In this document: positions 53,851-58,377 of the stretch, in pieces
Numbering within the stretch: the stretch's first letter is position 1
Layout of the letters: the number at the start of each line of letters is the position of its first letter
NCBI GenBank assembly: GCA_027627685.1
Contig: CP091241.1
Span: 1,799,191-1,863,190 of the forward strand
Source of the DNA: Hyphomonadaceae bacterium ML37
GTDB taxonomy: Bacteria; Pseudomonadota; Alphaproteobacteria; Caulobacterales; Maricaulaceae
DNA length: 64,000 nucleotides
Reading direction: 5' to 3'
Notes under the pieces: model-generated
Told to the model about the DNA's origin: nothing
Databases searched by the model: none
Seen by the model: the letters and a program-made list of their open reading frames with translations, nothing else
Position numbers and translations under genes: made by a program

Positions 53851-56800
53851 TCATATCAGCTCGACCTCCGCCACGCCGTCGAGGGCCTTGAAGGCGGCGC
53901 GCGCCACCGGGTCCACGCCATGTTCGCCGGGCAGGCGCAGCTCGGCCCGGCGCCCGTCGGCCAGCGGCACAATGAGATGCACCTTGCCGCGCGGTCCGGG
54001 CCGCGCCAGCGAATGCTCCAGGCGCGCGGGCAGCCCGGCCAGCGCCGACGGCCCGTCAAGATGGATGCGCAGGCCCCGCCCGTCCGCCTCGACCGCGGCG
54101 GTGTTGATGGCCTCGGCGCTCTCCATGATCAGGCGCAGGCCTTCTTCATTCTCTTCAATCTTCATGGCCGAGATCACGGCGCAGCCCGGCTCGATGAGAT
54201 CGCGCACCGAGAACAGGATTTTGGGCGGCACCAGCACGTCGAACTCGCCCGATGGGTCGGACAGGGTGAGGAAGGCGAATTTCTCGCCTGAGCGGCGCGA
54301 CACCTTTTCCTGGCGCCGGCGCACGATGGCGGCCATGCGCGCCGCCTTGGCGCCGTCGGCCACGCGGGCGGGCAGATCGGCGAACAGAACCACGCCGCGC
54401 CGCGCCAGCCCGTCGCGCAGATCGTCCAGCGGATGGCCCGACAGATAGAAGCCCACCGCTGATAATTCTTCATCCAGCCGGCGCACAGGGTCCCAAGCCT
54501 CGCGCGGCGGCAGGCGCGGACGCTCCAGAGCTTGCGCCGCCCCGGAAGCAGGCCCGCCGAACAGCGAGGCCTGATCGCTTTCACGTTCAGCGTGAGCGGT
54601 CTGGGCGTAGGCCAGCAGGGTTTCGGCAGCCGCCAGCGCCTGGGCGCGGTCGGGCTCCAGACTGTCGAACGCTCCGGCGCGGGCGAGATTTTCAAACGCG
54701 CGCTTGTTCACCAGACGCGGATCAACGCGGCCTGCAAAATCAAACAGATCGCGGAACGGCCCGCCCTCGGCGCGCACGGCACGCACATGCTCCATGGCCG
54801 AGAATCCCACATTGCGCACCGCGCCCAGGCCATAGCGCACCGCTTGGCCCTCCACTGAGAAATCAGCCTCGGAGCGATTGACGTCAGGCGGGCGCACCTC
54901 GATGCCCATGCGCCGCGCTTCCTGGAAGAACACGGCGAGTTTGTCGGTATTGGTGCGGTCGAGACTCATCAACGCGGCCATGAAGGCCACAGGGTGATTG
55001 GCTTTCAGCCAGCCGGTGCGATAGGCAATCACGGCATAGGCGGCGGCGTGGGACTTGTTGAAGCCGTAGCCGGCGAATTCATTGACCAGATCGAAGATGA
55101 AGGCCGCGCGCACCGGCGGCACGCCGCGCTCTTTCGCGCCCTCGAGGAAGCGGACGCGCTGCTGGTCCATCTCCTCTTTCTTCTTCTTGCCCATGGCCCG
55201 GCGCAACAGATCGGCCTCGCCCAGCGAATAGCCCGACAGGATCTGGGCGATTTGCATCACCTGTTCCTGATAGACGATAATGCCGTAGGTCTCTTTGAGC
55301 ACCGGTTCGAGATCGGGGTGGAGATAGTCAAGCTCGGCGCGGCCAAATTTCCGGTCCACGAAGCTGTCGATATTCTTCATCGGACCGGGGCGGTAGAGCG
55401 AGATCAGGGCGATCACGTCCTCAATGGTGTCCGGCTTCACCTTGCGCAGCGTGTCGCGCATGCCCGAGCTTTCCAGCTGGAACACGCCGATGGACGCGCC
55501 CGCCGCCATCAATTCGAACGTGGCCGGATCATCAAAGCTCAGGGCTTCCAGATCGGGCCGCTCCGCCCCGGCGCCCTCGATATAGTCCAGCGCACGCTGA
55601 ATGACGGTGAGGGTTTTGAGGCCCAAAAAGTCGAATTTCACAAGGCCCGCCGGCTCGACCCATTTCATGTTGAACTGGGTGGCGGGCAAATCCGCGCGCG
55701 GATCGAGATAGAGCGGCACCAGCTCGGTCAGGGGCCGGTCGCCGATCACCACCCCGGCGGCGTGGGTGGAGGCGTTGCGGTTGAGCCCTTCCAGCTGCAA
55801 CGCCACCTCGATGAGGCGCGCCACCATGGGATCTTCATCGCGCAGCGCCTGCAGCTTGGGCTCTGTGTCCATGGCCTGGGCGAGCGTCACGGGCGCCGCC
55901 GGATTGGCGGGCACCAGCTTGGCGATGCGGTCGACCAGACCGAAGGGCAGCTGCAGCACCCGGCCTACATCGCGCACCACGGCGCGCGCCTGCAGCGTGC
56001 CGAAGGTGATGATCTGCGCCACCCGGTCAGCGCCATAGCGCTTCTGGACGTAGCGGATCACCTCGCCGCGCCGGTCCTGACAGAAGTCGATATCGAAGTC
56101 GGGCATCGACACGCGCTCTGGATTGAGGAAGCGCTCGAACAGCAATCCAAAGCGCAGCGGATCGAGATCGGTGATGGTCAGCGCCCAGGCCACAAGCGAG
56201 CCTGCGCCCGAGCCCCGGCCCGGCCCTACAGGAATCCCCTCGGCCTTGGCCCACTGGATGAAGTCCGACACGATCAGGAAATAGCCGGGAAAGCCCATCT
56301 TGCCGATGACGTCGAGCTCGAAGGCCAGGCGCGCCTCATAGGTCTCGCGCGGCGCGGCCGGTTCATTGCGCGCCAGGCGCGCCTCCAGCCCGGCGCGGGC
56401 GCGCGCGCCCAGCTCCTCAGCCTCGTCGCGTCCGCCCTCGGTGGGAAAGCGCGGCAATATGGGCGCCGCCGTGTGCACCCGCACGGCGCAGCGCCGGGCG
56501 ATCTCCATCGTGGCGTCCAGCGCTTCGGGCAGATCGGCGAAGCGCGCGGCCATCTCGGCGCCGGATTTGAAATAGTGCTCGGGCGTCACCGTGCGCCGGT
56601 CGGTCTGGCTGACATAGGCGCCGCCCGCGATGCACAGGAGCGCGTCATGGGCGCTGTGCTGCTCGGGCCGCGCAAAGAAAGGCTCGTTGGTGGCGACCAG
56701 CGGCAGGCCGCGCGCGTAGGCGCGATCGATGACATAATCCTCCGCCGTCAGATCATCGGGCCGGCCATGGCGCTGCAGCTCCAGATACAGGCGATCGCCG

Positions 56801-57300
56801 AACGCCTCGGCCAGCTGGTCCAGCAGCGCGTCCGCCGGCCCCGCGCGCCCGGCGCAGACCAGACGATTGATCAACCCGTCATGGCCACCGGTCAGACAGA
56901 TCAGTCCCTCGGCGCGCGCCAGCACGGCGTCGAGGCGCACATGGGGCGGATCGGGCTGCTGGATGTCGAGAAAGGCGGACGAGGACAGCGCCATCAGATT
57001 GGCGTAGCCCGCCTCGCTCTGGGCCAGCAGGACCAGCGTGCCGTCAGGGCCGCCGCGATCACCGGGCCTGGGCTCGGCGATCTGGACCGAGAGCGTACAC
57101 CCGATGATCGGCTGCACGCCGGCGTCAGACAGGTATTCTGAATATTCCAGCGCGCCGAACAGATTATTGGTGTCGGTCAGCGCTGCGGCGGGCATGTCGT
57201 GGGTGCGGCATAATTCGGCGATTTCGCCGATGCGCAGCGCCCCTTCCAGCAGAGAATAGGGCGAGCGCACACGCAAATGGACAAAAGGGCGCTGGCTCAT
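53851..57300 (-). CDS. dnaE: DNA polymerase III alpha subunit
   Basis: 1149 residues, the replicative polymerase catalytic subunit. N-terminal PHP domain ([15 protein letters not shown], then A-L-T-D-T-N-N), polymerase aspartates in [25 protein letters not shown], helix-hairpin-helix and OB-fold region ([11 protein letters not shown]). Length and order fit DnaE1 rather than the shorter DnaE2 mutator polymerase. ATG 57300 follows a putative small peptide gene by 85 bases. Confidence 0.97.
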
Positions 57301-57385
57301 GGATCCGTCTCCGCGCGGCGGGATTCGCAACGCCGCCCACTCTAGACGCAGCCGGGCGATGCGGTCAGCCCGGCGCGCTCAGCCC

Positions 57386-57478
57386 TCACCCCGCCATTGC
57401 GGCGGAGACGGCGAGCGCGAGGGTGACGAAACCGGCGATGACCGCAGCCGAGGCGATGTCTTCAAGAGCGTGGCGCAT
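57386..57478 (-). CDS. 30-residue single-pass membrane peptide, SidA-like candidate
   Basis: Reads M-R-H-A-L-E-D-I-A-S followed by a 20-residue hydrophobic helix that ends A-M-A-G and a TGA stop. A purine-rich AGAAGGA (57487-57493) stands eight bases before the ATG at 57478; an ATG three codons earlier (57487) overlaps this site and is less likely. Two LexA-like boxes lie 40 and 65 bases upstream, and dnaE follows on the same strand. Caulobacter SidA is a 29-residue inner-membrane, SOS-induced inhibitor of division. Homology here rests on size, topology, regulation and place, not on a sequence match I can verify. Confidence 0.5.
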   Translation of the reverse strand: MRHALEDIASAAVIAGFVTLALAVSAAMAG

Positions 57479-57517
57479 GGCAGGCATCCTTCTGGTGGCG
57501 CGCCGCATTCAGCGGCT

Positions 57518-57557
57518 ATTCGCGTTTTGTTCCTCCCTATATTTTCGCCTTTTGTTC
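57518..57557 (-). promoter_or_regulatory. Tandem LexA-like (SOS) boxes
   Basis: TTCGCGTTTTGTTC (57519-57532) and TTCGCCTTTTGTTC (57544-57557) agree in 13 of 14 bases, 25 bases apart. Each fits the alphaproteobacterial box GTTC-N7-GTTC in seven of eight fixed positions (first half ATTC or TTTC). On the minus strand TTGACG at 57567-57562 could be the -35 element, placing both boxes over the promoter of the small peptide gene. Nothing else was seen in the remaining space up to lolD. Confidence 0.6.
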
Positions 57558-57684
57558 TCCGCGTCAAGCGCGAATCGTGCTGGCGCCAAAATGATTCGCA
57601 AAGCTGTGGAAAATCCGGGGGTTGGCGCGCCTGCTCAGCCCGCAAAAGCGGGTTCAGGCAGCCCAAATCGCAAGACAAAACGGC

Positions 57685-58377
57685 TCAGCTCTCGGCCGTC
57701 CACGCCGTCAACCGGCCCTGCTCCACCGTCACCACCCGGTCCATGCGGGCGGCCAGCGCCAGATTGTGGGTGGCGATCAGCGCGGCTGCGCCGGCTTCGC
57801 GGCAGGCGACAGCCAGGGCGTCGAAGACCTGGTCGGAATGGGCCGGATCGAGATTGCCCGTGGGCTCGTCGGCCAGCACCACGTGCGGATTATTGACGAG
57901 CGCCCGGGCGATCGCCACGCGCTGCTGCTCGCCGCCGGACAGCTGCCCTGGGCGGTGGGTGAGCCGCCCGCCGAGTCCGAGGGATTCAAGGCGAACGCGC
58001 GCCGCCTCATGGGCCTCGCGCACGCCCCTGCCCGCAATACGCAGCGGCAGGGCGACATTCTCCAGCGCGTTGAGCTCGGGCAGGAGGTGGTGGAACTGGT
58101 ACACAAAGCCAATCTCGCGCCGGCGCAAGGCCGTGCGCGCGCGTTCTGGCAGGGCGAGCCCGTCCTGCCCGGCGATGAAGACCTGACCCGAGGTCGGCGT
58201 CTCCAGCAGCGCTGCAGCATGCAGGAGCGAGGACTTGCCCGAGCCGGACGGCCCGACCAGCCCGACCAGCTCGCCGGGATAGAGGTCGAGATCGGCGCCC
58301 GACAGGACTTCCAGGCGCTCGGCCCCGGTCTCGTAGACGCGCGTCAGGGCGCGGATGGACAATACCGGCTCACTCAT
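57685..58377 (-). CDS. lolD: Lipoprotein-releasing system ATP-binding protein
   Basis: 230 residues, ABC ATPase. Walker A G-P-S-G-S-G-K-S-S-L-L-H, Q-loop Q-F-H-H-L-L-P-E, signature L-S-G-G-E-Q-Q-R-V-A-I-A-R-A-L, Walker B V-V-L-A-D-E-P-T-G-N-L-D. The F-H-H-L-L-P-E-x-x-A-L-E-N-V segment is typical of LolD. With LolC it extracts outer-membrane lipoproteins from the inner membrane. Its start overlaps the lolC end by eight bases. Confidence 0.95.
   Translation of the reverse strand: MSEPVLSIRALTRVYETGAERLEVLSGADLDLYPGELVGLVGPSGSGKSSLLHAAALLETPTSGQVFIAGQDGLALPERARTALRRREIGFVYQFHHLLPELNALENVALPLRIAGRGVREAHEAARVRLESLGLGGRLTHRPGQLSGGEQQRVAIARALVNNPHVVLADEPTGNLDPAHSDQVFDALAVACREAGAAALIATHNLALAARMDRVVTVEQGRLTAWTAES

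Follow-up and report, generated by a model that had tools for sequence, protein, structure and literature searches.

What is the very short gene that precedes dnaE in this genome, and is it a counterpart of the division inhibitor SidA of Caulobacter? SidA is described as a 29-residue inner-membrane protein that acts on FtsW (PMC4211646). In the window (the whole stretch of 64,000 nucleotides that we analyzed), a 30-codon gene at positions 57386..57478 (stop codon included) is located on the minus strand between a lolD-like ABC ATPase gene (57685..58377, minus strand) and dnaE, which encodes the alpha subunit of DNA polymerase III (53851..57300, minus strand, ATG at 57300). The three genes share one strand. 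The peptide gene is upstream of dnaE and on its strand, as an earlier examination of the nucleotides (below, the sequence-only reading) had stated. The lolD-like gene has LolD as its best NCBIfam match, at 249.4 bits, which is below the model cut-off of 307.75. We propose that the encoded peptide is, with high probability, this bacterium's form of SidA, and we hold with considerable confidence that its gene is a sidA ortholog, which would be repressed by LexA and whose product would act on FtsW as a brake on division after DNA damage.

The frame translates as MRHALEDIASAAVIAGFVTLALAVSAAMAG and has a ribosome-binding site, AGAAGG (57488..57493, minus strand), that ends nine bases before the ATG, which confirms the 30-codon frame with a ribosome site proposed earlier. 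An alternative in-frame start at 57487 would give 33 residues, but it abuts AGAAGG, and the 30-residue start is common to relatives in the window's family. In line with the single membrane helix of the sequence-only reading, the 30 residues contain one hydrophobic stretch, with a best 15-residue hydropathy mean of 2.33 (calculated on the identical peptide of locus L003). The genes of three congeners show 8, 11, and 8 synonymous differences and no change in the encoded peptide, and dN is lower than dS in each of the 18 pairs tested. The peptide frame is under amino-acid selection, which acts on residues of the helix. Neither Pfam nor NCBIfam has a match to the peptide.

Upstream of the gene are two LexA-type boxes on the minus strand, box 1 (GAACAAAAGGCGAAA, 57543..57557) and box 2 (GAACAAAACGCGAAT, 57518..57532), whose starts are 25 bp apart. 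Both boxes are imperfect, and each has seven of the eight fixed bases of GAAC-N7-GAAC, which on the other strand reads GTTC-N7-GTTC, the published LexA motif of Caulobacter (PMC12700426). They agree with each other in 13 of 15 bases, and in 13 of 14 over the shorter stretch in which two LexA-like copies, each matching at 7/8, had been noticed; that description holds on the sequence. Single boxes with 7 or 8 of the 8 fixed bases are common and are found 32 times in the window on both strands, versus 24 times for the mirrored pattern. By contrast, the window has just one pair of boxes on the same strand at a distance of 12 to 60 bp, and no such pair of the mirrored form. Across the genome (3,038,461 bases), only the window locus matches the tandem pattern perfectly; a second match is GC-rich and carries a mismatch, and the reversed control gives none. 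Since approximately 97% of Caulobacter SOS promoters are reported to carry one box (PMC12700426), several boxes would be unusual if all of them bind. The tandem is kept in relatives, and at least one box is perfect in 91 of 128 loci. The motif TTGACG directly before box 1 (57562..57567, minus strand) is a presumed −35 element. A sigma-70 scan of the region reported no promoter, so the −35 reading rests on conservation: 71 of the 128 loci have TTGAC in the 30 bases that precede the first box, and in 36 of those 71 it is 10 bases before the box, the commonest distance.

The box motif of the peptide locus is shared by other SOS genes of the same genome. Perfect boxes number 47 genome-wide (26 for the reversed control), and we inspected 19 stretches, which together contain 22 of these boxes. 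A perfect box is located 59 bases before recA and another 58 bases before lexA (domains confirmed on fragments in both cases). One perfect box is positioned between two genes that, reading by eye, we take to be uvrA and ssb, and another is upstream of a frame, presumably imuA, about 2.4 kb upstream of dnaE2. Several other of the 19 inspected stretches have no obvious SOS gene.

The sequence-only reading had let its case depend on the conservation of the peptide and the boxes in relatives with the same gene order. To survey relatives, we looked for the start of DnaE in 61 genomes, in 149 genomes of family f3 (which holds named Caulobacter records), and in 120 genomes of the order, which together are 272 distinct genomes; the DnaE start was unmatched in one of them (G130). 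The upstream stretch was read in a non-random 166 of the 272, namely the best-listed ones and 90 regions chosen for genus spread, four of which repeat a genome. A uniform test, framed after the first loci had been seen, asked for a box with at least 7 of 8 fixed bases and an A/T-rich start, followed after 20 to 110 bases by a frame of 25 to 34 codons with a hydrophobic stretch. Box and peptide precede dnaE in 41 of 43 genomes of f1 (the window's family), 68 of 71 of f3, 13 of 15 of f5, and 7 of 13 of f4. The lack of conservation that would have spoken against the sequence-only reading was thus not observed: both are kept in 129 of 142 genomes in four families, although family f2 has them in 0 of 24. 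A near-identical second test found 67 of 71 in f3 and left the other families unchanged. Its controls gave 6 of 3,320 when two-base blocks were shuffled (each locus being shuffled 20 times), 8 of 166 when the boxes were mirrored, and 2 of 166 when the opposite strand was read. Some of the misses reflect the limits of the test: in G048, a frame of 25 codons follows a GC-rich box, G524 has a helix frame without a good box, and the boxes and peptide of G100 were found in another scan. Both box and peptide are missing upstream of dnaE in G004, a 1.7-Mb genome of the window's genus (locus L018). In f2, the gap between lolD and dnaE is short, 58 to 199 bases in the 15 loci, of 22, that allowed a measurement, and the lack of a box-peptide pair at dnaE suggests either loss in that family or gain elsewhere. 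In most of the relatives that we examined in the order, a sidA-like gene with boxes is beside dnaE.

Is this locus the sidA locus? A scan of named records gave 37 loci, of which 26 are Caulobacter-like (matches with at least 67% identity). Box and peptide are present in 24 of the 26; the other two have cut flanks, and one of these still has the peptide. None of the remaining 11 loci of the scan has a box-peptide pair. C. vibrioides DSM 9893 and OR37 have a 29-residue peptide with multiple boxes at this position upstream of dnaE, and the next gene upstream of it is divergent; in DSM 9893, this divergent gene belongs to the inosine-uridine nucleoside hydrolase family. Published tags identify sidA as CCNA_02004 (PMC10769358), an inosine-uridine preferring nucleoside hydrolase as CCNA_02005 (PMC3667746), dnaE as CC1926 and lexA as CC1902 (PMC1839093), and LexA as CCNA_01979 (PMC11535069). 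An offset of 77 between the two tag series would make dnaE CCNA_02003, next to sidA. In the literature that we found, there is no direct statement that sidA adjoins dnaE, and it is from the neighbors and the published tags that we infer the C. vibrioides peptide at dnaE to be SidA. Given this 29-residue peptide, its dnaE and hydrolase neighbors, and the tags, we take the window gene to be the syntenic ortholog of sidA. What had been called SidA-like by size, topology, control, and position is thereby placed, by the gene order of C. vibrioides and the published tags, at the sidA locus itself. The same literature describes sidA only in Caulobacter, and the founding paper (Modell 2011) may already report relatives. 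At one Caulobacter locus (L155), the tandem boxes are separated from the divergent nucleoside hydrolase gene by an additional perfect box, GAACATCTTGTGAAC, some 190 bases upstream of the dnaE match; the divergent hydrolase gene of Caulobacter may also be SOS-controlled.

Comparison of the peptide with a SidA profile, which the sequence-only reading had suggested as a check, gave a divided answer. In its favor, a profile-profile alignment of 24 f1 peptides with 24 f3 peptides spans columns 1 to 23 without a gap (probability, 94.2%; identities, 17%). Peptides of both families share a G-F pair, and f1 members such as MRRVLQDVSAATAILGFAWMITLWGSVLGAA form a bridge to the GFVWM of f3. Against it, scores of single sequences are weak and a genome search misses the gene. 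When f1 peptides were scored against the f3 profile, 7 of 24 exceeded 99% of shuffled peptides and 11 of 24 exceeded 95%; for f3 peptides against the f1 profile, the numbers were 12 and 16 of 24. Scored against the f3 (Caulobacteraceae) profile, the window peptide itself exceeds 95% of its shuffled counterparts but falls short of the 99% level, and a search of the window's genome with the f3 profile did not find the peptide gene. Over 290 genomes of the class, the Caulobacteraceae peptide profile matched 3 Caulobacteraceae genomes and, weakly, one unrelated sequence (E 0.005). Similarity of residues is insufficient to identify SidA; gene order and boxes carry the case. While the profile search makes SidA look narrow, confined to Caulobacteraceae, gene order and LexA boxes reveal a checkpoint peptide in the 129 genomes of four families, and the same combination offers a route to other short checkpoint peptides that sequence searches miss.

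The window peptide resembles Caulobacter SidA in its length (30 versus 29 residues), its one hydrophobic helix, its LexA-type boxes, its location immediately upstream of dnaE, with lolD beyond it, and the gap-free profile alignment that includes the G-F pair of the helix. It differs in that few residues are identical, in that box starts are 25 bp apart rather than 16 and 18, in that no divergent hydrolase gene intervenes between lolD and the boxes, and in that a pair of GANTC sites precedes the promoter. Another Caulobacter protein, DidA, is likewise a small damage-induced division inhibitor with one helix, but it has 71 residues, binds FtsN, and is induced via DriD and not LexA (PMC4211646). 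YneA, ChiZ, and SosA are also small membrane inhibitors of late division that are induced by the SOS response or by damage. Models place these three and SidA at TM7 of FtsW, with confidence that is not high (PMC13396833). YneA and ChiZ carry a LysM domain and SosA an extended helix, whereas SidA is modeled on the opposite side of TM7. We rejected a YneA/ChiZ type for the window peptide, which lacks a LysM domain: 30 residues leave no room for one, and there is no Pfam match.

The position directly upstream of dnaE admits a different explanation, in which translation of the frame, as a leader peptide, would modulate dnaE and the helix would be a mere by-product. The gap between peptide stop and dnaE start is 85 bases in the window, and no terminator-like site was found in the region; read-through into dnaE is therefore plausible at this locus. 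In relatives, where the nearest ATG or GTG was taken as the dnaE start, 57 of the 116 loci measured have a gap shorter than 40 bases (8 of 37 in f1, 46 of 61 in f3, 3 of 13 in f5, and 0 of 5 in f4), and the peptide gene and dnaE are likely to be co-transcribed in some lineages. This closeness would suit a leader peptide, but the gap ranges from a 4-base overlap (one locus) to 300 bases, selection acts on the residues of the helix, and the region has no Rfam family, attenuator, or known RNA in addition to having no terminator-like site. The fold of the gap is also no better than that of shuffles (z 0.62), and the product of sidA, the counterpart in C. vibrioides, works in trans (PMC4211646). 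We regard a leader peptide as very improbable. Chance matches in a GC-rich gap could be imagined for the frame and boxes, given that single boxes are nearly as frequent when mirrored; this is scarcely credible, because the tandem is unique and both conservation, which already refutes it, and selection speak against it.

A more serious alternative concerns the target. FtsW substitutions F145L and A246T suppress SidA in Caulobacter, in the authors' view by hyperactive division rather than by lost binding (PMC4211646); A31K is another published suppressor. Among 46 FtsW proteins (that of locus L201 in G000 and 45 from relatives, numbered on C. vibrioides), F145 is found in 13, all from genomes with the peptide, and L145 in 19 of the 19 genomes without a strict peptide call. 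The 27 genomes with the peptide also include 11 with L145 and three with M or V at this position. T246 occurs in five of the 46, which are all five examined genomes of genus g23 in f5, and residue 145 of FtsW in f5 is L, M, or V. No pattern emerged at position 31 among the 46. The split at 145 and 246 follows families, and descent explains it as well as co-evolution does. Together with a helix whose letters have drifted far from those of Caulobacter, the natural occurrence of such residues in f5 would fit an SOS membrane peptide that has kept the locus and changed its target to another division protein or to the membrane potential, in the manner of DinQ of E. coli, an SOS-regulated toxic peptide with a single helix (PMC3567139). 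However, locus, length, and control are the same, and the window's FtsW keeps F145 and A246 as in Caulobacter (with V instead of A at 31), and we consider a changed target unlikely.

For the preferred reading, a SidA ortholog that targets FtsW, we infer the following course of events. LexA bound to the two boxes would cover the promoter, box 1 following TTGACG and box 2 starting 25 bp further on, and would keep the peptide gene silent. After DNA damage, RecA would trigger cleavage of LexA and the promoter would open. The induced 30-residue peptide would insert into the inner membrane, its N-terminus probably facing the cytoplasm, contact FtsW, and keep the late division complex from working until the damage has been repaired. 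If transcription reads through into dnaE, the amount of replicative polymerase may increase as well.

Sites of the CcrM type (GANTC) add a possible second layer of control. One is located 5′ of the presumed −35 element (57572..57576), another at 57593..57597, and a third in the gap between the peptide gene and dnaE (57322..57326), all on the minus strand; three sites thus fall between 57322 and 57597, whereas the window as a whole has 1.2 per kb. In the 60 bases that precede the first box, GANTC is found in 21 of 41 f1 loci, compared to 4.3% of other 60-base pieces and 19% of base shuffles; in f3 (10 of 68), f4 (0 of 7), and f5 (2 of 13), it is no more frequent than in shuffles. Within 90 bases of the peptide stop, it is found in 28 of 41 loci in f1, 43 of 68 in f3, 4 of 7 in f4, and 4 of 13 in f5 (25 to 27% in shuffles). 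These counts come from related loci, which are not independent. The enrichment, seen around the promoter in f1 and downstream of the peptide stop in both f1 and f3, suggests cell-cycle control on top of LexA. A CCNA_02005-type hydrolase gene is divergent from sidA in C. vibrioides, and CCNA_02005 is listed among promoters bound by GcrA (PMC3667746).

We tentatively suggest, as a possibility well short of probable, that sidA and dnaE form an order-wide unit linking damage and the cell cycle, in which LexA and CcrM sites set both brake and polymerase and the peptide co-evolves with FtsW. Under such co-evolution, the f2 genomes examined, which are without the peptide, carry the SidA-resistance leucine at FtsW 145, and the g23 genomes of f5 combine T246 with a strongly altered peptide, which must then act differently. 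The many natural variants of SidA and their FtsW partners would make it possible to map how about 30 residues stop septal wall synthesis.

Two further box arrangements were seen elsewhere in the genome. At locus L148 (G000:C1:2324400-2326800), a perfect LexA-type box, possibly there by chance, is about 159 bases before a frame that resembles MraZ, whose gene usually opens the cluster for division and cell-wall synthesis. At locus L138 (G000:C1:108900-111300), two perfect boxes in opposite orientation, 34 bases apart, are positioned at the start of a 106-codon frame.
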